Assembly (NCBI RefSeq): GCF_009795885.1 | Contig: NZ_WTEV01000014.1 | Span: forward strand, 1-64,000 | Reading direction: 5' to 3' | DNA length: 64,000 nucleotides | From: Gilliamella sp. Pas-s25 | Lineage (GTDB): Bacteria > Pseudomonadota > Gammaproteobacteria > Enterobacterales > Orbaceae | In this document: in pieces, positions 4,664-38,325 of the stretch | Numbering within the stretch: the stretch's first letter is position 1 | How the letters are laid out: every line of letters starts with the position of its first letter | Position numbers and translations under genes: made by a program | The notes under the pieces: generated by a model | Told to the model about the DNA's origin: nothing | Seen by the model: the letters and a program-made list of their open reading frames with translations, nothing else | Database searches by the model: none

Positions 4664-4857
4664 GTTAGCGAACCTAACAAAATAAAAGCGCTAATATAAT
4701 AGATAAAAGCTGATTTGTCATCTTGCAAGTTTTATTTAAAACAACATTGAGTGGTAATTGATAGAATTGTGGTGACCTTTATTTTTGACGCTAGTTAAGC
4801 TTTAAATACTTGCTGATCTTGCTGTATAAATTTTATAAAAAATATTGTGGATTTGCT

Positions 4858-4886
4858 CTTGAAATTTAGCTTGCAACACACATTTA
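4858..4886 (+). promoter_or_regulatory. Sigma-32 heat-shock promoter of clpB
   Basis: CTTGAAA (4858-4864) is followed after 13 bases by ACACATTTA (4878-4886), close to the sigma-32 consensus CTTGAAA-N13-15-CCCCATNT. The transcription start would fall near 4893, about 60 bases before the clpB ATG. The promoter therefore rules out translation starts upstream of it. Confidence 0.8.
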
Positions 4887-4954
4887 GATCACATGCAAAT
4901 GGGTTGAATGTGTCAAGCATTGAACCCAAATCTATTGCTCAGGAGATAAATACT

Positions 4955-7525
4955 ATGAGGTTAGATAAACTAACAAACAAGTTTCAACAAGCTTTAGCTG
5001 ATGCGCAGTCAATGGCGTTAGGTAAGGACAATCAATATATAGAGCCTGTGCATGTTCTATCAGCCATGCTTAATCAAGAAGGTAGCAGTGTAACGCCATT
5101 ATTGACTACTGCTGGTGCAAATGTCGCTGTTTTACAACAAGAATTAACACAAGCCGTTGATCGATTACCCCAAGTTCAAGGTGTGGGTGGCGATGTTATG
5201 CCATCGCAAGAGTTTGTTCGTGTATTAAATCTATGCGACAAATTATCCCAAAAAAATGGCGATAGTTATATATCATCAGAACTCTTTATATTAGCTGCTT
5301 TAGAAGACAAAGGTAGCTTAAGTGATATTCTTAAAAGATCAGGCGTCAATAAAGACAAATTTAGCCAAGCAGTCAATCAAGTAAGAGGTAGCGATAACGT
5401 GAACGACCCTAATGCAGAAGATCAACGTGGTGCTCTTAAAAAATATACTATTGATTTAACTCAACGAGCAGAACAAGGTAAGCTTGATCCTGTTATTGGT
5501 CGTGATGAAGAAATTCGCCGAACAATTCAGGTATTACAACGCCGTACTAAAAATAATCCGGTATTAATTGGTGAACCAGGCGTGGGTAAAACCGCTATTG
5601 TAGAAGGTTTAGCTCAACGTATTGTTAACCGCGAAGTGCCTGAAGGATTGCGGAATAAACGCGTTTTATCGCTAGATATGGGCGCATTAATTGCGGGTGC
5701 TAAATATCGTGGTGAATTTGAAGAACGGTTAAAAGCCGTGCTTAAAGACTTAGCAAAAGAAGAAGGTCGCATTATATTGTTCATCGACGAAATCCATACC
5801 ATGGTTGGTGCAGGTAAAAGCGATGGTGCAATGGATGCCGGTAATATGCTAAAACCTGCATTAGCGCGTGGAGAATTGCACTGCGTGGGCGCAACAACGC
5901 TTGATGAATATCGTCAATATATTGAAAAAGATCCGGCGTTAGAACGTCGTTTCCAAAAAGTCTATGTTGCCGAGCCAACAGTTGAAGATACTATTGCCAT
6001 TTTGCGTGGCTTAAAAGAACGTTATGAACTGCATCATCATGTACAAATTACCGATCCGGCAATTGTGGCTGCGGCAACGCTATCGCATCGTTATATTTCA
6101 GATCGCATGTTACCTGACAAAGCAATTGACTTAATTGACGAAGCTGCATCGAGCATTCGTATGCAAATGGATTCCAAACCAGAATCTTTAGATCGACTTG
6201 AAAGGCGCATAATTCAACTTAAACTTGAACAACAAGCACTTAAAAAAGAGTCTGACGATGCCAGTAAAAAACGACTTGAGATGTTAAACGATGAACTTTC
6301 TGAAAAAGAAAAGGAATATGCATCACTTGAAGAAGAATGGAAATCAGAAAAAGCAGCTGTTTCGGGCACGCAAAGCATCAAAGCTGAGCTAGAAAAAGCG
6401 CGTACTGAAATAGAGCAAGCACGTCGAGCTGGCGACTTGAGCAAAATGTCTGAATTACAATACGGCAAAATACCAGAGCTCGAAAAGAAACTTGCTTCAG
6501 CAACTCAGTTAGAAGGCAAAACCATGAAGTTATTGCGTAACAAAGTGACCGATAACGAAATTGCCGAAGTGCTATCTAAAGCGACAGGTATTCCGGTTTC
6601 TAGAATGCTTGAGAGCGAAAAAGACAAATTATTACATATGGAAGATGCTTTACATAAACGTGTCATTGGCCAAAATGAAGCGGTATTAGCGGTTGCTAAT
6701 GCGATTCGCCGTAGCCGAGCTGGGCTTTCAGATCCAAACAGACCAATTGGATCGTTCCTATTCTTAGGACCAACAGGGGTAGGTAAAACCGAGCTTTGCA
6801 AATCACTGGCTAACTTTATGTTTGATAGCGAAGATGCCATGGTGCGTATTGATATGTCAGAGTTTATGGAAAAACACTCTGTTGCTCGCTTAATTGGTGC
6901 ACCTCCGGGTTATGTTGGTTATGAAGAAGGCGGATACTTAACAGAAGCTGTTAGACGTCGACCTTATTCAGTTATTTTACTTGACGAAGTCGAAAAAGCG
7001 CATCCAGATGTCTTTAATATCTTACTGCAAGTTCTGGATGATGGACGCTTAACCGATGGCCAAGGTCGCACGGTTGATTTTCGTAATACTGTCATAATTA
7101 TGACATCAAACTTAGGTTCAGATCTAATTCAAGGTCAAGTTGAGTTAAGTTATGACGAAATGAAAGCGCTAGTGATGACAGTTGTTGCTAAACACTTTAG
7201 ACCAGAATTTATCAATCGTATTGACGAAACAGTGGTCTTCCACCCACTCGGTCAAGAAAACATCAAAGCGATTGCAAAAATTCAATTAGCACATGTTGAA
7301 AAACGGTTAGATGAACGTGGTTATCAATTGGATATCTCGGATGCAGCGTTGGAACAACTTGCTAAAGTCGGCTTTGACCCAATTTATGGGGCAAGACCAC
7401 TAAAACGAGCAATCCAACAAGAGATCGAAAACCCATTGGCACAGCAAATACTGTCTGGCAAATTAGTTCCGGGTAAAACTATTCATCTAGATTTAGTTGG
7501 CGACAACATCGAAGCTAAACAGTAA
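4955..7525 (+). CDS. clpB: ATP-dependent disaggregase ClpB
   Basis: ClpB is the hexameric AAA+ chaperone that, with DnaK, pulls polypeptides out of aggregates after heat shock. From ATG 4955 it has 856 residues, against 857 in E. coli, and starts [11 protein letters not shown] as expected. The domains in order are an N-domain, AAA-1 with Walker A GEPGVGKT and Walker [10 protein letters not shown], a long coiled-coil middle domain (about 400-520), AAA-2 with GPTGVGKT, and a C-terminal domain with [11 protein letters not shown] longer open frame from 4847 would contain the heat-shock promoter. AGGAG lies nine bases before the chosen ATG. Confidence 0.97.
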
Positions 7526-7993: not shown

Positions 7994-8022
7994 TAGCCAA
8001 GCTTTTTTTTTATGGTTATACT
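7994..8022 (+). promoter_or_regulatory. Promoter with poly-T spacer (gene 1)
   Basis: -35-like TAGCCA (7994-7999), a 17-base spacer containing nine consecutive T (8003-8011), and -10 TATACT (8017-8022). The same layout is conserved before the second copy, with ten T. Spacer length would change if the T run slipped. Confidence 0.6.
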
Positions 8023-8057: not shown

Positions 8058-9221
8058 ATGAACGCAAAAAGGATAAATAAAACAATAATTTACTTGACAG
8101 GTAAACCGCAATGCATTATCATTTTAAACACCAAACACCAAACACCAAACACCAAACACCAAACATGGCAAACCTATGTCTTAAATTTATCAAATAGACG
8201 CATTAGACGAATTTTTACTCTTGCCTCGTTAATATCCTCGAAGTTATCCCTAAAATTATTATCAAAACTATCCCGAAAAATCCCGTTGGCGTTGGTACTC
8301 CTATCATTATTGTTGTCTTCGTTGAATTCACAAGCATTATCGGGTCAAAATAGTCGAGGCGGTGATCGCAGTGATGCCATAATTCTACCACCAGGACAAT
8401 GGGGAAGAATCAAATCCGCAAAGTCGGAGGGGTTTTATTTTGATCGTGACTACGGCGTTGGTCCATATGCAGGCCCTGCTGAACTATGGGATCCCGATTA
8501 TGGCTTTCTGCTTCAATCAACCAATCCAGCATCATACGCGCTTAATTTTCCAACTACGGGGGCTAATGCATTATATTTTTATATAGTCGTAGAGGGAGAG
8601 GGAGAAGTAGTTCAATTATGGGAGCCAGTCACGCATGAGGGAATTAAAGCAGCTGTAAGACCATGGATACAATGTGGTAGTGAAGAATGCCATACCGAGT
8701 ATCGTGTTACACTAACAGGTCCAGAGGCAGGAAATCAATGGCTTAATCCTTATCCGGGTCCAATTGCTAAGCCAAATTTACCGCAGACCTTTGAGTTAGT
8801 GGGTAAAGATAGTGAGGGTAGTGAGATACTTAAATATGGATTTACATTGCAAAAGTGGTTCGTGGCTCGAGGGCAGTCATTAACAATCCTACCCGAGCAA
8901 CAATCTTGGTGTAATAGTATAGGTTATCGTTTGCCACAGGTCAGGGATCTGACTAATGCTAGAGCAGGACGTTTTGGTGCTACACCATCATCAAGTGGTA
9001 ATCATTACCAGAGACGAATTGGTTCTGGATTATTCACGGAGTGGAGCCCCATGAACCGCTACGATAGAGCGCGCCTTTACTATAGCTACTGGACGAGTGA
9101 TGGTATGCCAGTACCGGATGGTAGTTATCAGCATGGTGATCTCATTGTTGCCTCGTACGATGGCGGCGTCGGCGTCGACATTGTACGAGGTATTCATTAT
9201 GCTATGTGCGTTACACCTTAG
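8058..9221 (+). CDS. Secreted adhesin-like protein, phase-variable family, copy 1
   Basis: The open frame from ATG 8058 encodes 387 residues. It has a long basic N-region, a hydrophobic signal core (KIPLALVLLSLLLSS, cleavage near SQALS), and a mature part with GPAELWDPDYGFLLQST, FPTTGA and LPQTFELVGKD blocks. A C-terminal domain (GYRLPQVRDLTNA ... ATPSSSGNHYQR ... FTEWS ... YWTSD) follows. This resembles the DUF823-type adhesion domain of enterobacterial adhesins; that assignment is from memory of family motifs. ATG 8058 is not conserved in copy 2 and lacks a near ribosome site. ATG 8111, conserved and preceded by AGGTAAACC, reads out of frame after 28 codons because of the heptamer number. 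So the gene is probably OFF, or uses a weaker start. Confidence 0.7.
   Translation: MNAKRINKTIIYLTGKPQCIIILNTKHQTPNTKHQTWQTYVLNLSNRRIRRIFTLASLISSKLSLKLLSKLSRKIPLALVLLSLLLSSLNSQALSGQNSRGGDRSDAIILPPGQWGRIKSAKSEGFYFDRDYGVGPYAGPAELWDPDYGFLLQSTNPASYALNFPTTGANALYFYIVVEGEGEVVQLWEPVTHEGIKAAVRPWIQCGSEECHTEYRVTLTGPEAGNQWLNPYPGPIAKPNLPQTFELVGKDSEGSEILKYGFTLQKWFVARGQSLTILPEQQSWCNSIGYRLPQVRDLTNARAGRFGATPSSSGNHYQRRIGSGLFTEWSPMNRYDRARLYYSYWTSDGMPVPDGSYQHGDLIVASYDGGVGVDIVRGIHYAMCVTP
8126..8165 (+). repeat. Heptanucleotide tandem repeat (AAACACC), 5.7 copies
   Basis: Five exact AAACACC units and a partial sixth begin 12 bases after the A of the conserved ATG 8111 (after ATGCATTATCATTTT). Seven is not a multiple of three, so each gain or loss of a unit shifts the frame. 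From ATG 8111 the downstream gene would be in frame with one unit fewer or two more. Confidence 0.95.
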
Positions 9222-9488: not shown

Positions 9489-9517
9489 TAGCCAAGTTTT
9501 TTTTTTATGGTTATACT
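9489..9517 (+). promoter_or_regulatory. Promoter with poly-T spacer (gene 2)
   Basis: TAGCCA (9489-9494), a 17-base spacer containing ten T (9497-9506), and TATACT (9512-9517). The spacer total is the same as for gene 1 although the T count differs by one, because a C is replaced. Confidence 0.6.
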
Positions 9518-9621
9518 TTCATCAACTTAAAAAACGGATTATTTAATAAGCGAAAGAACATAAAAAGGATAAATAAAACAACAATTTGCTTGACAGGTGA
9601 ACCATAATGCATTATCATTTT

Positions 9622-9644
9622 AGACACCAGACACCAGACACCAG
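9622..9644 (+). repeat. Heptanucleotide tandem repeat (AGACACC), 3.3 copies
   Basis: Three exact AGACACC units plus AG directly follow ATGCATTATCATTTT (9607-9621). From ATG 9607 the frame stops after 19 codons. Gaining one unit or losing two would join it to the adhesin frame. Confidence 0.92.
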
Positions 9645-9749
9645 CACTGGCAAACCTATGTCTTAAATTTATCAAATAATCCTATTCGACGAGTTTTTAC
9701 ACAAAACTTATTTATATCTTCGAAATTATCTTTCAACTTATTATCGAAA

Positions 9750-10709
9750 TTGTCCCGAAAAAGCTTATTGGTGTTGGGGCTGTTATTGTTGTCATCTTCA
9801 TGGAATTTACAGGCATTGAATGGTAAAATAGCTCGAGCGGATAATCGTAGTGATGCGATAATTTTACCTTCAACGGTAGTTGCAGTTATTGATTATGTAA
9901 GGCCGGCTTTATTTTGGGGTAGCGGCGAATATGCAGGCCCAGTTGACATATGGAATCCTGATAAAGGCTTCTTAGTTCAATCAACCAATCCTGAATCATA
10001 CAACCTAAATTTCCCGACCACGGGTGCGCATAATTTATATTTTGATTTACTCATAACTGGAGATATAGAAGAATTGACATGGGAACCTGTCACGCATGAG
10101 GGAATCACCGCGACAGTGACAAATGTTGTAGCTAATGATATTTGGATTCCTTATGAAGATAGGAGACAAGTTGTAGCTCGTGTTAAGCTAACAGGTCCAG
10201 AGGCAAGCAATCAATGGGATAATCCGAATCCTAGACGAATTACTGTACCAAGGTTACCGCAGACGTTTGAGTTAGTGGGTAGAGATATATATGGCGGTGA
10301 GGTAGTAAAATATGGATTTGTATTAAGGCAGTGGTTCGTCCGTAATGGTCAATTTAGAACTTATAGTAACCAGTTAGCATGGTGTAATAGTTTGGGTTAT
10401 CGAATGCCACGGGTAAGAGATTTAACCAATTCAATCTGTAGTAATTTAGGTGCATGCTCATCCTCTGCTGACTATGGTAATCATTACACGCGTCACATAG
10501 GCGCTGGCTTTTTCACGGAGTGGGGCCACATGAGCCTCTACACTGATGCGGGCTTCCTCGACAACAACGACGCCTTCTGGACGAGCGACGCAGCAGGTGG
10601 CGGCGAGAAGTTCGGTGTCGACGTGAGCCACGGCAACGTCCACTACGTCCGCAACGACGGCGGCCTCATTGCCGACGCCACCCGCCCAGTCCTTTGCACC
10701 GCACCTTAG
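9750..10709 (+). CDS. Secreted adhesin-like protein, phase-variable family, copy 2
   Basis: The open adhesin frame can be read from TTG 9750 (319 residues). Homology to copy 1 extends upstream in the same frame to the heptamer tract (QTYVLNLSNNPIRRVF ...), so the intended start is probably ATG 9607, now out of frame. The mature protein has the blocks GPVDIWNPDKGFLVQST, NFPTTGAHNLYFDL, LPQTFELVGRD, LGYRMPRVRDLTN, GNHYTRHIGAGFFTEWG and FWTSDA. There is no membrane anchor or barrel. The last 65 or so codons are strikingly GC-rich: I count 78 G+C in the 120 bases 10561-10680, in a genome near one-third GC. That suggests the C-terminal cassette was imported or exchanged. Confidence 0.7.
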   Translation: MSRKSLLVLGLLLLSSSWNLQALNGKIARADNRSDAIILPSTVVAVIDYVRPALFWGSGEYAGPVDIWNPDKGFLVQSTNPESYNLNFPTTGAHNLYFDLLITGDIEELTWEPVTHEGITATVTNVVANDIWIPYEDRRQVVARVKLTGPEASNQWDNPNPRRITVPRLPQTFELVGRDIYGGEVVKYGFVLRQWFVRNGQFRTYSNQLAWCNSLGYRMPRVRDLTNSICSNLGACSSSADYGNHYTRHIGAGFFTEWGHMSLYTDAGFLDNNDAFWTSDAAGGGEKFGVDVSHGNVHYVRNDGGLIADATRPVLCTAP

Positions 10710-11824: not shown

Positions 11825-12451
11825 TTATATCCAAGAACCATTACGAATAACACCAACAGCGAGTCCTTCAATGGCAAAATTTTGTTGTTCTAAATCAACT
11901 TCGATAGGTGAGAATTCTTTGTTTTCGGCAATTAGGTGAACATGCTTGCCTTTGCGTGACAGTCGTTTAACCGTAACTTCGTCATCAATGCGAGCAACCA
12001 CAACTTGACCGTTTTTAACATCTTGGGTTTTATGTACAGCCAATAAGTCACCATCTAATATGCCGATGTCTTTCATTGACATACCGTGCACCCTTAATAA
12101 AAAGTCAGCATGGGGTTTAAACAGTGATGGATCAACTTGGTAATGACTTTCGATATGCTCTTGCGCTAATATTGGCGAACCCGCTGCGACTTGCCCAATA
12201 AGCGGTAATCCCTCTAGTTCATTTTGCTCAACAGGGCTTTCAAGCAAAAGACGAATTCCGCGCGATGAGCCTGCGATCATTTCGATCGCGCCTTTTTTGG
12301 CAAGCGCTTTAAGATGTTCTTCAGCTGCGTTAGCGGAACGAAATCCTAATTTTTGAGCAATTTCGGCACGAGTGGGTGGCATGCCGGTGGTTTGGATGTT
12401 GTCTTTTATTAAATTATAAATTTGTTGTTGACGTTCGGTTAACGGTCTCAT
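11825..12451 (-). CDS. lexA: LexA repressor
   Basis: LexA represses the SOS regulon and self-cleaves when bound to RecA filaments. The 208-residue protein has an N-terminal winged helix ([15 protein letters not shown]; recognition helix near [21 protein letters not shown]). The cleavage site is Ala90-Gly91 (QVAAGSP), and the S24 peptidase catalytic pair is Ser125 (GMSM) and Lys162 (TVKRL). Two SOS boxes lie immediately upstream, so it is autoregulated. Highly typical. Confidence 0.98.
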
Positions 12452-31489: not shown

Positions 31490-33673
31490 ATGGAGTTTTA
31501 TTGGTTAATTAAGATTTTTTTAATAGGTCTTGCTATATTTTCTTGGATTAATTATAGCTCAAAAAGACATACAAATAAGCAAAATTTAAAGGATGTCATT
31601 AAAGATCGCATATCAATAAGAAAATTAACCGAAAACGAATTTGAACTTTTAGAACCTTATCTGAATAATAAATGGTTAGTGTTTCCGTATAAATATCAAT
31701 CATCATTAATTGATTTAGAAGTATCAAAGATAGCAGGAAATTGTGTCCGTCATAGTTTATATACGAATACTGAAGAAACATCTTTTTATTATGAGATTGA
31801 TGGGATTGAACTCTTTTTCCCTTATAACATGTACCTCCATATTTCAGATTTTAACGTTGCTGAAGTCGTTTTTACCGAGAAATATGCATTTGTGGTTAAA
31901 ATCAATGATTATGATCTAAAAACTGCCGCAGAATCTCAAGGCGGAATCATATGCTCAGAATTAGATGAACCTTGGATGTATGAGCAATCTTTTGATTCTA
32001 AAATGCCAGAAGATGAACAAACAAGTAATGATACTGTTGTGAGCGTAAAACCGAACCCTGACAAAAAAATAGATTTTGTAAAATTGTTGGAACGTGAAGA
32101 AACTCCATTAGAATTAAGAAATAGAAATAAAAAAGGTAACGGTCTATTATCAGCTATTTTTTTAACTTTGATGACTGTGTTTTTCCTTATCTATTGGTAT
32201 TCCAATAATTCTACCATCCTTATTTTAGTTATTTTTAGTACGATACTTTCCGTTATTTTTTATTGGTATCAGCCTAGATCTAAATACGATTTAAACAACG
32301 TAATTTGCGTTAAGGGCTTAATTAAAAATAAAAACGTTTCTAAAAAAGAAGTTATCATTGGTGAAGATTATATTTTAAACATTCCCCACCATTGGCTGCC
32401 TTTTCTTCCTGAGAAGTCGTTTTTGCCTGCAAACATGGACATATCAGTGAGTGATAGAAAGCTAATTCGTTATGAAAATACACTTTCAATTAGCCAAGAA
32501 ATCGAACAATTTGGAGCACCAAAATTTGCTAGGCGTAATTTGATACTCTTAATTACTGGAATTATTTTATCTGCTGTTGTCTATTTTCAAACAAGTTTAG
32601 CTGTTAATGCAATATTAGCTTATCAATTTTTCAACAGCGATATAACCACTAGAAATTTACAGGATGAATCAACCTTAAAAAATAGTCCAATTCAAAAAGG
32701 TGATTTAGTCAATATAAAAATAAGTGGTGCATCATGCGATGTAAATGAAAATAGGTGTCATACATTATTCATCAATAATCAACCTATTGATATCGAAACG
32801 AATTACATAGCATCAATAGCTGAACCAATGAAAAATTTATTTAAAGATAATTTTATAAATACTCGTGTTGATCAAGATGTTATTGCAGTCCAGCAATATC
32901 AAGACCGATTGATTGAATTGTATAAATCCTTTGATAGGATATCATCTCAATATCAACGATATATCAAAGAATCATTTACAAAACTAATAGATATTGGAAA
33001 AATCGTAATTACTGTGAATAAAGTTTGTAAAGTTTCTGAAATCGATTGTCTTAGCGTCAAGAAAGAGTTGACTGCCTTGTTTGATATACAGGTTTCAGAT
33101 GATTTATCTGATTGGGAAAAATTTGTTAATGAATCTGAAATTAATCCAAATCATGATGAGATTGTTTCCGTCAGAAATGTTTCTAAGCTTGATAATTCAA
33201 TCTCAAGATTGAAGGCAGATGTAATCGCAAGATTAAAGAGTACTGTTTCAGATTATCAGCATGATAAATCAAGTTTTAGGGTTGATTTATCCGAAAATAG
33301 TTACTTAGAAATGGGCAAACTAGAACATATAAATAATGACAAATCAGGACCTGTTTCATTATTAACAGTAGAGCACTATTATGATGTGCTATTTGCAAAA
33401 GCGGGGAATATTGACGTTGTTGGACGGGTTAGCGATATTTATTATCGAGATGATAATTCAATATCGGGTTTGAAGATTAACGCAAACTCTCATTACAGTA
33501 CGAATTTAGATGAACTATTTTCATTCGTATCCCCAATTTTTGTTAGTCTTGCTGTTTTTATGATTACGGCTTTAGTTTCGATTTTAAATGGCGTTGCAAT
33601 TTGTTACAAATTGTTGGCTAATCATCGACGCAAGAATAAAATTTTAGCTATATATAAAGAGCGAATAATATAA
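31490..33673 (+). CDS. IgaA/UmoB/YrfF-family membrane protein, copy 1
   Basis: IgaA proteins restrain the RcsCDB envelope-stress phosphorelay from the inner membrane. The 727-residue product has the same architecture: an N-terminal helix (4-22), a cytoplasmic domain (about 45-150, KLTENEFELLEPYL ... VFTEKYAFVVK), two helices (about 205-250), a second cytoplasmic segment with HHWLPFLP and LSISQEIEQFG, a helix near 345, a large periplasmic domain opening GDLVNIKISGASCDV, and a last helix near 690. The comparable IgaA block is GDTLRISGTGMC. Identity is low, so this is a family-level call. A close paralogue follows 114 bases downstream. Confidence 0.7.
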   Translation: MEFYWLIKIFLIGLAIFSWINYSSKRHTNKQNLKDVIKDRISIRKLTENEFELLEPYLNNKWLVFPYKYQSSLIDLEVSKIAGNCVRHSLYTNTEETSFYYEIDGIELFFPYNMYLHISDFNVAEVVFTEKYAFVVKINDYDLKTAAESQGGIICSELDEPWMYEQSFDSKMPEDEQTSNDTVVSVKPNPDKKIDFVKLLEREETPLELRNRNKKGNGLLSAIFLTLMTVFFLIYWYSNNSTILILVIFSTILSVIFYWYQPRSKYDLNNVICVKGLIKNKNVSKKEVIIGEDYILNIPHHWLPFLPEKSFLPANMDISVSDRKLIRYENTLSISQEIEQFGAPKFARRNLILLITGIILSAVVYFQTSLAVNAILAYQFFNSDITTRNLQDESTLKNSPIQKGDLVNIKISGASCDVNENRCHTLFINNQPIDIETNYIASIAEPMKNLFKDNFINTRVDQDVIAVQQYQDRLIELYKSFDRISSQYQRYIKESFTKLIDIGKIVITVNKVCKVSEIDCLSVKKELTALFDIQVSDDLSDWEKFVNESEINPNHDEIVSVRNVSKLDNSISRLKADVIARLKSTVSDYQHDKSSFRVDLSENSYLEMGKLEHINNDKSGPVSLLTVEHYYDVLFAKAGNIDVVGRVSDIYYRDDNSISGLKINANSHYSTNLDELFSFVSPIFVSLAVFMITALVSILNGVAICYKLLANHRRKNKILAIYKERII

Positions 33674-33787
33674 TTATTATGTAACATATTGTTATATAGA
33701 AAATTAAATGTAATCGCATTTGGTTTTCTACATTGTTAAACATAAAAAAATAGAAATACAATGAAATAAAAAGGAAAACGCCAAAAA

Positions 33788-36352
33788 ATGGATACTATTT
33801 TTACTTTAAAAATCATTTTGCTCCTAATTATGTTATTTATTACCTTAATCGGATTTGCGAAGTGGTGTGATTTTAAATCTGAACGTCGACAAAACAGAAG
33901 AAACCTAGAAGAGCGTATAAATAATTGTAAAACAATAAGAAGGTTAACATCAGAAGAACTTGAGCTGATAACCCCTTATCTCACCGATAAAAAATTGGTA
34001 AAACCTTATAAATTGCAATCTTCATTAGTGAATTCTGAAGTATCTATTATTGAGGGCGCCTGTGTTCGTCATAGTTTTTATACCGATTCAAAAGAAACTG
34101 AATTTTATTACAAAATCGATGGTATCGAAGTCCTATTCCCTTATAATTTACAACTATTTGCTTTAGATTATAATATTGTGGAAGTTGTTTTCACATCGCG
34201 CTATGCGATTGCCGTTAGTTTTAATGGCTATGGTTTTGATACGTTAGCAGATTTTAGTGATAATTCCAATGATGAAAATAACAAATATGGTTTATCATTT
34301 TTCTCTAACTTAAGTCGAACAATAAAAGAAGAAGAATACCAACTACTTGAACCTTATCTTAACGACCCATCTATGGTAGGGCCTTATGAACATGGGCCTT
34401 CATTAGTTAGTCCAACTGTTTCAGTTATCGTTGGCTCTTGTATTGCTATTAACCAGTCTAATAAGCGTAATGATCCTATCTATACTTATCGAATTGGTGA
34501 TACCGTTGTCTTTTTTCCTTATGACATGGAACAATACGTTGAAGACATCAATATCGTACAAGTCGTATTTACTGAACGCTATGCATTAGTGGTCAAACTC
34601 AATCAATATGACCTAAAAACAGCACAACAAAATCAAAAACAACCAAACAAAAAACCGCATTTTGTCAAGCCTTGGGAAAGCAAAAAAACACAAGCTGAAC
34701 TCGAAATTGAACAAAACCTAACTGACGCAAATGACAGCATAATTAAAATTGATAAAAATATTGAATTAAAAAGCAAATTTAGTTGTGAAATAGTCGAACA
34801 ACGTGAAGAAACACCTCTAGAATCGGCGATTCGAAGTAAAAAAAATACTGGCATATTTGCTGCCGTTTTTTTAGTGGTAGCTGCTATGTTATTTGTTAAG
34901 TACTGGCACTCTTTTGATCGTTTTTTACCTGTACTTATCATGCTTAGTTTATCTGCTACTGTTTTCTTTTACTTGCGTAAAGCTGAATCTTACACATTAG
35001 ATGTTAACCGCATAAAAGCGAAAATTCGACACAAAGACGACATAAAAAACCAAATGGTAGTTGGTGATAATCTCACTTTAAAATACCCTGCTTATTGGAT
35101 TCCATTTCTGCCTGATAAAACGAATGAAAATATCGACATGGATATCGTTGCAAATAGCAAAAAACTGCTTCGTTATGGCAATTCATTATCCATCAGTCGT
35201 GAAATAGAAGAATTTGGGCCGCCAAAATTTATAATGCGCAATCTAATACTATTTGTTACAGCGCTTATTTTATCTATTAGCATCTTTAAATTAGTTAATA
35301 TCTCCGATAATTTGCCACTGGCTAGTTATCCTTTTAATGACCATGTCAGTATTTGGAACATTAAAGATGCTAAATCTTTAAAAAACAGCCCAATCAAAAA
35401 GGGCGACTTGGTTAATATAAAACTCAACGGCGCATCATGTAATGCGCAAAGCAACATATATTTAGAACATTGCGATAAAGTGTTTATTAACGAGCAAACC
35501 GCAAACAATGCCGAAGATGCCTCATTTGAGAACGATTTGTTAAACGCGTTTTTTGGCAATAACTTAATTAAAACAGTACGAGATAATGACGTAACAGAGC
35601 TTGAAAACCAGCTAAACAACAGAAAAAACACAGACTACAACGCGGATTACCAATCGGGCGTAATATTAACCAAACTATTACATATTGATCGCTTAATTCT
35701 AACTATCGACGAAAGCTGCCAATTGTTAGAAGAGGACAAATGTAGACGAGCCAAGCAGATTTTAATCCAAACCATTAAACCAACCGCCAGCACACTCGAC
35801 CAATGGCCTCAACTTGTCGAATATAGCAAACAGCACCCAAACTACGAAAAGATTATCGTTGCTGGCATGCTCGAACACCTAGAACCACAAATCAATAACT
35901 TAAAAAGAAGTGTGTTATCTTACTACCTAGAAAAAGCAAACACAGCGCTAACTGATTATCAACAATCAGCACAAAGTGTCGGCTTAGCATTAGCAAATAC
36001 ACAAGAGATAAAAATCAGTTATCCCGATGACGAAGATATAAGCTTGACAGAAACATACTATAATGCGTTATTAGGAAAGGGCGGAAAGGTGAAAGTTTCA
36101 GGACTAGTGACGGGGGTAAATTATCAAAGTGATAACACAATTTTAGATCTAACTATTAATAATGATTTTTTATATAGGTTTCATCAAGAACAGTTATTGT
36201 CATTCACCTCGCCAATATTTATCGGCATTTCTATTTTTATTATCACTGCCTTAATAGCGTTGTTTCATGGCATAACCATTTGCTATAAATTAATTGCGAA
36301 TCGACAGAGAAAAAATAAAATCATTAAATCATATGAAAATAAAATAATATAA
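33788..36352 (+). CDS. IgaA/UmoB/YrfF-family membrane protein, copy 2, with duplicated N-domain
   Basis: Paralogue of the preceding gene with 854 residues. The extra length is an internal duplication: residues about 51-152 (LTSEELELITPYLTDKK ... VVFTSRYAIAVSFNGY) and about 176-279 (IKEEEYQLLEPYLNDP ... VVFTERYALVVKLNQY) are two versions of the single N-terminal cytoplasmic domain of copy 1. The second repeat is closer to copy 1 in its ending (YDLKTA). The rest is collinear: a helix pair near 355-400, a helix near 485, periplasmic domain GDLVNIKLNGASCN, and a last helix near 810. Own ribosome site (AAGG). Possibly one operon with copy 1. Confidence 0.7.
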   Translation: MDTIFTLKIILLLIMLFITLIGFAKWCDFKSERRQNRRNLEERINNCKTIRRLTSEELELITPYLTDKKLVKPYKLQSSLVNSEVSIIEGACVRHSFYTDSKETEFYYKIDGIEVLFPYNLQLFALDYNIVEVVFTSRYAIAVSFNGYGFDTLADFSDNSNDENNKYGLSFFSNLSRTIKEEEYQLLEPYLNDPSMVGPYEHGPSLVSPTVSVIVGSCIAINQSNKRNDPIYTYRIGDTVVFFPYDMEQYVEDINIVQVVFTERYALVVKLNQYDLKTAQQNQKQPNKKPHFVKPWESKKTQAELEIEQNLTDANDSIIKIDKNIELKSKFSCEIVEQREETPLESAIRSKKNTGIFAAVFLVVAAMLFVKYWHSFDRFLPVLIMLSLSATVFFYLRKAESYTLDVNRIKAKIRHKDDIKNQMVVGDNLTLKYPAYWIPFLPDKTNENIDMDIVANSKKLLRYGNSLSISREIEEFGPPKFIMRNLILFVTALILSISIFKLVNISDNLPLASYPFNDHVSIWNIKDAKSLKNSPIKKGDLVNIKLNGASCNAQSNIYLEHCDKVFINEQTANNAEDASFENDLLNAFFGNNLIKTVRDNDVTELENQLNNRKNTDYNADYQSGVILTKLLHIDRLILTIDESCQLLEEDKCRRAKQILIQTIKPTASTLDQWPQLVEYSKQHPNYEKIIVAGMLEHLEPQINNLKRSVLSYYLEKANTALTDYQQSAQSVGLALANTQEIKISYPDDEDISLTETYYNALLGKGGKVKVSGLVTGVNYQSDNTILDLTINNDFLYRFHQEQLLSFTSPIFIGISIFIITALIALFHGITICYKLIANRQRKNKIIKSYENKII

Positions 36353-36783: not shown

Positions 36784-38325
36784 ATGATCGAAGTGCGTTA
36801 CCATTTTCAATACCTCTATAGTCTAAAACAGACTCCATTTTTATTATCGAAATCATTGAGCTTGGCGTCATCGAGGTCGAGTTGTAAGCTTTTATCCTCC
36901 TTATCAAAGTCTTCATTGGCTTTTGTGTCATTGTTGTTACTGTCGTGTTCGTTTGGTACACAAGCGTTATCTGTTTATATGTCAAGTACATCAAAAGTTA
37001 TTGAAGGTAGAGAGCCGTATTTAACGTTTGATGGGGGGCGAACTAAGGAGTTTTCAGCGAAGACTTTATTAGCTATCACGTTGCCGGACGGTCGAATCAT
37101 TAAACCAACGTTTAATACATCAAATGCCATGAATCCAATAAGATTACCTTATGCAGGGATTACATTGGGGGATATAGGCACGTTGATACCACCACCAGCT
37201 GATTCAGTAAGTTTAAATGATTTAGTGAACACCTATCATTATTGGGGAGATGATGACGGAGATGGTCAGGGTACTGATGGTGTTACTGTGACGGGTAGTA
37301 TCTCGGTGAATTTTACTGATAAGGATGGTAATACGGTAGGTCGTAATGATACATTAGATCCCTGTAAGGCCCCATATAAGATGACATTAAGTAGTACAGA
37401 TGGAAGTTTAACTACACAGTACGGAATCCCTAATACAAGCCATTTCGATGGTTACTCAGTGTCGTATTATATCAATCCGTATGACTCTAGTATTTGTTAT
37501 ATAAGGCCGAATCTCAATAATGGCTTACATGATTTTAGAGGCCCTGCTAACATATGGGATCCCGACAACGGTTTTTTAGTTCAGTCAACCAGTCCGTTAT
37601 CTTACGGTAATAATTTTCCTACTACGGGTGCTCATGGTTTGTATTTTGATTTAATTGTCCGTGGCGGAGATGGAAATGGGTTGACGTGGTCAACTGTCAA
37701 CTTGGGCGGGAGCGGGATAACTGCTACAGTCACATGGGTAAGACCAAACAGAAGTGATGATTGGATTTTTAATAGAACCCGTGTAGCTCGGGTAACATTA
37801 ACGGGGCCTAGGGCGACTCCTAGTCAGGTGGCTTCTGATAATCCTAGTCCGCTTACTCCGTTGCTATCTTTGCCGCAGACATTTGAGTTAGTGGGTAAGG
37901 ACAGTAGTGGTAATGTGGTACTCAAGTATGGGTTTATGTTGAAGCAGTGGTTTGTCAATCGGGGGTATGAGTTCTTTGATATTGACACTCAAACAGCTTG
38001 GTGTCATAGTTTGGGGTATCGAATGCCGCATATAAGGGATTTAACTAACGCGAAGTGTGGTATACATTATAGTTTTCCATGTGTAAACGGGATCGATGGC
38101 GCAACACCGTCATCATCTTATAATGTTTACCAACGACAAATAGGTGCAGGATTTTTCACTGAGTGGGGGCCGGTGATAAGTTACAGCGGTCCGGGCTTTG
38201 GTCGCTACCAAAACTGGACGAGCGACGCGTCAGGTAGTAAGTGGTTTTCTGTCAGCCCGATTGACGGCAAGGTCCTTCTCGACTTTCCACAGTTCCGCAA
38301 TAATGTTGTTTGCACCGTACCTTAG
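36784..38325 (+). CDS. Secreted adhesin-like protein, copy 3 (long form, not repeat-controlled)
   Basis: A 513-residue member of the family at 8.1 and 9.8 kb. It has a long N-region, a signal core (SSLAFVSLLLLSC, cleavage near TQALS), an extra N-terminal domain of about 200 residues (PYLTFDGGRTKEF ... YHYWGDDDGDGQGTDGVTVTG), then the shared part GPANIWDPDNGFLVQST, NFPTTGAHGLYFDL, LPQTFELVGKD, LGYRMPHIRDLTNAK and a C-terminal domain with FFTEWGP and NWTSDASG. The extra part and the C-terminus both resemble DUF823-type adhesion regions of enterobacterial adhesins. No heptamer tract follows the ATG, so expression should be steady. No anchor or barrel is seen. Confidence 0.7.
   Translation: MIEVRYHFQYLYSLKQTPFLLSKSLSLASSRSSCKLLSSLSKSSLAFVSLLLLSCSFGTQALSVYMSSTSKVIEGREPYLTFDGGRTKEFSAKTLLAITLPDGRIIKPTFNTSNAMNPIRLPYAGITLGDIGTLIPPPADSVSLNDLVNTYHYWGDDDGDGQGTDGVTVTGSISVNFTDKDGNTVGRNDTLDPCKAPYKMTLSSTDGSLTTQYGIPNTSHFDGYSVSYYINPYDSSICYIRPNLNNGLHDFRGPANIWDPDNGFLVQSTSPLSYGNNFPTTGAHGLYFDLIVRGGDGNGLTWSTVNLGGSGITATVTWVRPNRSDDWIFNRTRVARVTLTGPRATPSQVASDNPSPLTPLLSLPQTFELVGKDSSGNVVLKYGFMLKQWFVNRGYEFFDIDTQTAWCHSLGYRMPHIRDLTNAKCGIHYSFPCVNGIDGATPSSSYNVYQRQIGAGFFTEWGPVISYSGPGFGRYQNWTSDASGSKWFSVSPIDGKVLLDFPQFRNNVVCTVP

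Follow-up and report, generated by a model that had tools for sequence, protein, structure and literature searches.

Heptamer tracts behind the start codon of predicted invasin-tip-like genes: a probable, mostly OFF phase-variable repertoire in Gilliamella

Phase-variable gene repertoires are known mainly from mammalian pathogens such as Neisseria. The described systems closest to the locus reported here are genes with short tandem repeats near the start of the coding sequence. In neuO of Escherichia coli K1, an acetyltransferase gene of the CUS-3 prophage, an AAGACTC tract lies in the 5' coding region and its repeat count sets the reading frame (PMC13001214). That account gives a range of 3-53 repeats with 20 the commonest, a full-length product from counts divisible by three, and an OFF state in 42 of 64 complete genomes (PMC13001214). 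Similarly, Neisseria pglE is listed with a genic heptamer, CAAACAC, in 5-34 units (PMC5953494), and its phase variation is known (PMC5953494, PMC7157529). The opa genes of Neisseria are described as a multi-copy surface protein family in which each copy has its own coding repeat (CTTCT) and near-identical copies are hard to assemble (PMC5953494). Furthermore, a survey of Haemophilus influenzae, in which heptamers were counted from three units up, includes the adhesin genes hmw1A and hmw2A with heptamer repeats (PMC2651432). A full-text search of the open-licence PMC literature returned no report of phase variation in Gilliamella, and none of Gilliamella tandem-repeat adhesins or diversity-generating retroelements.

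The window, i.e. the whole stretch of DNA that was analyzed, comprises the first 64,000 nt of contig C17 in a 2.81-Mb, 109-contig Gilliamella genome (G000, the source genome). Two members of one gene family, copy 1 and copy 2, sit on the + strand; a clpB-like gene (4847-7525) flanks them on one side and a lexA-like gene (11825-12451) on the other, both named by eye, and a small minus-strand ORF separates copy 2 from the lexA-like gene. The family members of the window and their tracts are as follows.

8058-9221, + strand: copy 1 ORF from an upstream in-frame ATG at 8058 (ORF list)
8111-8165, + strand: start of copy 1 (ATG 8111) with the AAACACC x5.7 tract at 8126-8165, out of phase (TRF, frame check)
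9607-9666, + strand: start of copy 2 and its closed frame of 19 codons, ending in TAA 9664-9666 (sequence check)
9622-9644, + strand: copy 2 heptamer tract, AGACACC x3.3 (TRF, 100% match)
9624-10709, + strand: copy 2 main open frame, 361 codons plus stop, covering leader, signal-like segment and adhesin-like domain
36784-38325, + strand: third family member, long form (513 aa), heptamer tract absent

Starting 15 nt past the A of ATG 9607, the copy 2 tract is within the 5' coding region, and the length of its unit is not a multiple of three. From this ATG the frame reads MHYHFRHQTPDTSTGKPMS and, by direct check, ends at the TAA after 19 codons, while the main frame, which stops at 10707-10709 and is open back to 9624, lies in a different phase. 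The sequence-only reading of this DNA had described copy 2 as 3.3 copies of AGACACC with a frame stopping after 19 codons, in agreement with the sequence check and TRF; it also held that both copies begin ATG-CAT-TAT-CAT-TTT, as the sequence confirms, that both are out of phase, which is so when copy 1 is judged from ATG 8111, and that gaining one unit or losing two restores copy 2, as arithmetic bears out. From ATG 8111 the frame of copy 1 ends after 28 codons, and one unit fewer or two more would be needed. ATG 8058 is in frame with the copy 1 ORF, and a well-placed ribosome site is absent there by eye. The finding exceeds chance expectation: exact three-unit heptamer arrays were found in 0 of 100 mononucleotide-shuffled windows, in a scan that left out two-letter units and was hence blind to the copy 1 tract. 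In the window itself, the tracts of copies 1 and 2 were the only heptamer arrays reported by TRF with a 100% match and at least three copies.

Two further observations concern the surroundings. In G. bombicola (L218, NZ_FMAQ01000013.1), a clpB segment 98.4% identical to that of the window over 897 nt lies next to a different family member with a TGGCATC-type tract; the clpB-adjacent site looks like a place of gene exchange. Elsewhere in the window (31490-36352), two adjoining large paralogous membrane-like proteins (727 and 854 aa) have motifs in common by eye.

With copy 2 as the query, tblastn yielded 42 matches in the source genome at E <= 0.001. These were merged into 38 rows for the reading of unit and phase: 15 had three units and a closed frame, one had five units and a closed frame (copy 1), three had one unit and an open frame, one had a TTG start and a closed frame, and 18 were of other kinds, including a one-unit leader on C43 whose frame closes after 100 residues. 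The units seen were AGACACC, AAACACC and AGGCACA. Full-length frames of 349-419 codons were present in 14 of the 16 closed tract copies, L023 and L025 being the shortened ones. Unit number, by phase counts, separates a full-length from a truncated frame in copy 2 and its relatives. Of the switch that the sequence-only reading had proposed, the part that stands is that the tract sets the phase of an intact gene and that relatives differ by whole units; the local pair does not stand beside 42 matches, and the claim of four states from one locus is too small because 16 such tracts are out of phase in the source genome. That reading had also raised the possibility that copy 2 is a fixed pseudogene; with its full-length frame, copy 2 is not a decayed one. 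The largest tract of the source genome belongs to a long-form member (L034, G000:C95:3000-5800), in which 12 and 25 CAGCACA units flank an assembly gap.

The family was present in 34 of 35 Gilliamella genomes, with a maximum of 44 matches per genome. An order-wide survey, scoring at most five candidates per genome, found matches in 35 of 394 genomes: 26 belong to Gilliamella, five to two further genera of its family, and four, with weak matches, to other families. The 18 family ORFs from these two further genera, with L418 and L419 left out as Gilliamella, showed no heptamer tract at the 5' end; one of them, L410, has a 15-nt TAA array. No phage relatives were detected by tblastn at E 0.01 in 50,697 records.

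Among 244 deduplicated Gilliamella members with 5' sequence, which are mutually related top hits and not a random sample, 110 had a heptamer tract, six an octamer, four a tetramer, six another period (only three of these, with periods 6 and 9, being multiples of three) and 118 none. This census applied a looser threshold to heptamers than to other periods, missed copy 1 of the window, and called L312 closed through a wrong ATG, L312 being actually open with 14 units. Heptamers were still foremost (125 of 141 tracts, not fully deduplicated) when at least three copies were required of every period of at least 6. Directly after the start codon, 19 cyclically distinct heptamers were found in Gilliamella. 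All 19 are stop-free in three frames, compared to 58% of random heptamers with the family composition and 93% of those with the units' own composition. In some members, i.e. L297, L298 and L304 (G016), L306, L309, L311 and L315 (G027), and L334 and L337 (G026), the heptamers are replaced by tetramer (AGCC-type x20-26) or octamer (AACCACGC-type x14-17) 5' repeats, which are also frame-shifting.

The product of the main frame was examined by structure prediction. Two segments of it are listed below.

9750-9815, + strand: signal-peptide-like segment MSRKSLLVLGLLLLSSSWNLQA (by eye)
9816-10706, + strand: predicted mature protein with Ig-like and C-type-lectin-like fold (AlphaFold2 pLDDT 88.3; invasin 1cwv Z 17.4)

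No Pfam or NCBIfam family was found for either window protein at E 10, and a sequence search of the PDB gave one insignificant match only. Weak Pfam matches occurred among 57 members, to Invasin_D4 in six (best E 0.0094) and to Intimin_C in one. AlphaFold2 modelling of the 297-residue mature form with 57 sequences reached a pLDDT of 88.3 and a pTM of 0.86, and a Foldseek search with the predicted structure retrieved invasin 1cwv (E 8e-8) and intimin 1f00 (E 2.7e-5). VIA-align superposed the model on residues 794-985 of invasin 1cwv with a Z of 17.4 over 186 residues (rmsd 2.7) and on intimin 1f00 with a Z of 13.9, compared to about 7.7 and lower for other C-type lectins; identity to invasin and intimin in the VIA alignments was 16-18%. 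The C-terminal Ig-like and C-type-lectin-like module of inverse autotransporters (type Ve) is thus present in the predicted structure, and the product is predicted to be a free-standing invasin/intimin tip. The copy 2 frame of 361 codons, 297 of them taken up by the modelled two-domain tip, leaves no room for an N-terminal outer-membrane beta-barrel; an adhesive tip without a barrel is therefore not an inverse autotransporter of the intimin/invasin type (type Ve). The predicted Ig-like and lectin-like fold is not the beta-barrel of an Opa-like outer-membrane protein family. The family proteins would be secreted and would have an adhesive role.

These results are probably best explained by translational phase variation of the neuO/pglE kind at the scale of a repertoire that is mostly OFF. 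Ribosomes would start at ATG 9607, and the tract directly after the ATG (7 mod 3 = 1) would set the phase for leader, signal peptide and adhesin-like domain, such that the whole protein would be made with 1, 4 or 7 units and a peptide of about 20-30 residues with any other count. In the sequenced cell copy 2, with its three units, would be OFF, and so would copy 1, with five, when read from ATG 8111; both would be part of a Gilliamella-wide repertoire in which most tract-bearing copies would be OFF. Repeat slippage would be the cause of the changes in unit number, and the changes would be reversible.

Comparison of close relatives provided the evidence for length change. Among 49 close pairs, with at least 88% DNA identity over most of the gene, nine differed in the tract by exactly 7 or 14 nt with leaders otherwise matching, the pairs comparing paralogues or species; eight of the nine consisted of one open and one closed member. 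Three versus one unit was seen in L168/L182, in L039, L046 and L186 each against L056 (so that three of the nine pairs have L056 in common), and in copy 2 of the window (L042) against the open L053 at 88.7% DNA identity. Four versus three units was seen in L202/L205 and in L291, both within its own cluster and against L249, and L216/L211 were 14 nt apart and both closed. Furthermore, adjacent copies in G016 with near-identical leaders had 4 units (open) and 3 units (closed). The units themselves were replaced between L181 and L183, which are 97% identical and have different heptamers of three units each, and L174 and L173 (96.8%) had 2.3 and 10.7 copies, a difference that is not of whole units alone. 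Arrays thus arise, grow, shrink and turn over between paralogues or species.

For closed-closed pairs (n = 98) the median dN/dS was 0.48, with a range of 0.17-1.48, and for copy 2 against its nearest paralogue, L052, it was 0.81. These values are consistent with moderate constraint on the closed copies, some pairs being near or above 1. Changes by codon position numbered 3423, 3063 and 4840 in 25,306 codons of the body, and 125, 166 and 179 in 2026 codons within the 33-codon stretch behind the tract. The weak post-tract bias and low divergence do not establish constraint on the leader peptide; leaders may be homogenised by gene conversion.

The distribution of unit numbers across the genus was distinctly uneven. 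Of 124 leader-type members, 100 had a period-7 array of at least 14 nt, 22 had no tandem unit and two had N in the leader. Among the 100 arrays, 84 were closed in phase 2, 10 were closed in phase 1 and six were open, i.e. 94 out of frame. Of 108 tracts with the leader ATG, 82, spanning 14 unit types, had three units in phase 2; the rest include six with four units (open), five with two units in phase 1, and 11 with seven or more (7-16 units). The open fraction of 6/100, under the one third expected from free flipping, suggests that OFF is the usual state, and the three-unit clustering, which free slippage does not predict, is more in keeping with an OFF state that changes slowly than with rapid flipping. 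The sequence-only reading may thus overstate the speed of the switch, three units in one closed phase being the commonest state in the genus. Both features count against the switch model, as do the shortness of three units next to the 5-34 given for pglE and the commonest count of 20 given for neuO, the closed-closed dN/dS values of up to 1.48, the weak post-tract bias and the other in-frame ATG of copy 1.

The same clustering, in 14 unit types, speaks for a different explanation, namely that the tracts are frozen or slow, with three-unit copies stably silent and serving as a store of sequence that can recombine with open copies, and with counts changing over evolutionary time. Leaders less diverged than bodies, as expected from gene conversion, and near-identical bodies with different leaders (L054, L024) agree with it. 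The full-length frames kept in 14 of the 16 closed copies speak against it, as do the turnover of unit sequences between L181 and L183, the tracts of 7-16 units and the five units of copy 1, and we consider it unlikely. As the reason for three units we favour a mix, in which slippage at three units would be slow and three (OFF) and four (ON) units would form the shortest reversible pair; the switching rate is probably low at three units.

The three-unit state could also be an assembly artefact, short-read assembly having collapsed longer tracts of a multi-copy leader to about three units. Consistent with this, the short tracts in draft contigs are almost all 21-28 nt long, and runs of N occur within G017 leaders and within the long CAGCACA tract of L034. 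However, drafts also contain 2, 4, 5 and 10-15 units, and one-contig genomes agree with the drafts, closed three-unit copies numbering 15 in G004 and six in G016. The same pattern in one-contig genomes means that assembly collapse is not the whole reason for three units; as the sole cause it is weakened, and overall we regard it as very improbable.

The region around the start codon contains three further elements in copy 2.

9489-9517, + strand: upstream promoter-like element, TAGCCA, 17-nt spacer with T10 (9497-9506), TATACT at 9512-9517 (by eye)
9590-9618, + strand: consensus-like promoter straddling the ATG, TTGACA (9590-9595), 17 nt, TATCAT (9613-9618) (leader survey)
9595-9600, + strand: ribosome-binding site AGGTGA, 6 nt before ATG 9607 (by eye)

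Of 98 tract leaders, 93 have an SD-like site before the ATG. The TATAcT motif and T-rich spacer are kept in the consensus of the 98 leaders, and this upstream TATACT element could drive a transcript that includes the ATG. Runs of T, 10 in copy 2 (9497-9506) and nine in copy 1 (8003-8011), lie within the 17-nt spacer of the upstream promoter-like element and are a possible second length-variable element. A pair of TTGACA-like and TATAAT-like hexamers was present in 94 of the 98 tract leaders, 93 of them with a spacing of 17 or 18 nt, compared to 81 of 1960 shuffles, and this promoter across the ATG counts against the switch model. Of the 22 leaders that lack a tandem unit, 19 have the ATG in frame (18 open, one stopping early); of the three out of frame, one has a 13-nt array and two look like wrong ATG picks. 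The leader ATG is thus kept in frame as would not be expected of an unused start codon. The hexamer pair is the ground for the weakest alternative, a transcriptional one in which TTGACA-N17-TATCAT acts as the promoter, the RNA begins within the tract, ATG 9607 goes untranslated and the units alter only the 5' end of the RNA, which is set aside as the least probable explanation on account of the in-frame ATG of the no-tandem genes, the SD-like sites, the main frame of copy 2, in which ATG, GTG and TTG are all absent between 9624 and 9749 and the first start listed, TTG 9750, lacks a ribosome site by eye, and the distant members in G026 and G027, which by eye place the tract right behind an SD-ATG with the promoter absent.

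A second kind of variation was found at the other end of the gene.

10521-10682, + strand: GC-rich hypervariable C-terminal tail of copy 2 (tail GC 0.64, body 0.40)

The tail, some 55 codons at the end of the gene, is made up of NNC codons in a subset of members; GC-rich NNC tails occur also in relatives L053, L129, L226, L229, L233 and L234. For 11 pairs in which both members have more than half C-ending tail codons, differences by codon position numbered 200, 177 and 53 in 574 tail codons and 361, 334 and 451 in 3358 body codons. Among codons changed at both position 1 and position 2, position 3 had changed too in 10 of 114 in the tail versus 71 of 137 in the body (Fisher p 5e-14, the pairs being non-independent and the selection of C-ending tails itself lowering position-3 change). 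Across all 76 pairs the contrast was much weaker (174/457 in the tail versus 386/799 in the body), with tail differences of 966, 764 and 753 by position in 4037 codons. The tails of wkB178 (G010) show fixed NNC and NNT columns by eye. Such columns are a mark of adenine-directed retroelement mutagenesis. The source genome has three RVT_1 matches, group II intron-like by eye, and G010 has none. Searches for a template repeat with the tail DNA in the source genome retrieved, besides family genes and 3' ends of these, only a 61-nt scrap in C37, and a deduced 35-mer with 3 mismatches retrieved only a family gene in 35 genomes. A diversity-generating retroelement is accordingly not claimed as the source of the tail, because neither a reverse transcriptase of that type nor a template was found in these searches. 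In a tentative extension of the translational switch, an extension that we judge possible though rather doubtful, diversification may have two layers: the heptamer switch, its units turning over and returning to the closed three-unit phase, would select the one expressed out of dozens of adhesin-like genes, and the receptor-binding tail would be diversified by changes to codon positions 1 and 2 that leave position 3 alone, in a manner like that of diversity-generating retroelements, no such retroelement having been found in the genomes showing it.

A repertoire of such size in a core bee gut symbiont would give a tractable system in which the adhesin-like gene that is ON could be tied to strain coexistence, host specificity, phage pressure or bee immunity. 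It makes two questions testable, i.e. why tracts rest at three units in one phase whatever the unit sequence, and what gives rise to a retroelement-like tail where no retroelement is visible.

In comparison with the known systems, the Gilliamella genes are like neuO in that a heptamer tract in the 5' coding region sets the frame; neuO is described as a single gene with one unit sequence, whereas Gilliamella has dozens of paralogues that are adhesin-like, with 19 units and mostly three unit copies. The AAACACC unit of copy 1 is a rotation of the CAAACAC given for pglE, which is a single glycosyltransferase gene. In organisation the family resembles opa as described, with many copies each having a coding repeat, but opa has a pentamer in 4-12 copies and encodes outer-membrane proteins, as opposed to heptamers and an invasin-tip fold. 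In hmw1A and hmw2A the repeats lie mostly in the promoter and modulate transcription. The predicted fold is like that of invasin and intimin, the Gilliamella mature form being the tip only, with barrel and long shaft absent. The mechanism is thus one already known, and it is the scale, the many unit sequences, the three-unit resting state and the host that look new.
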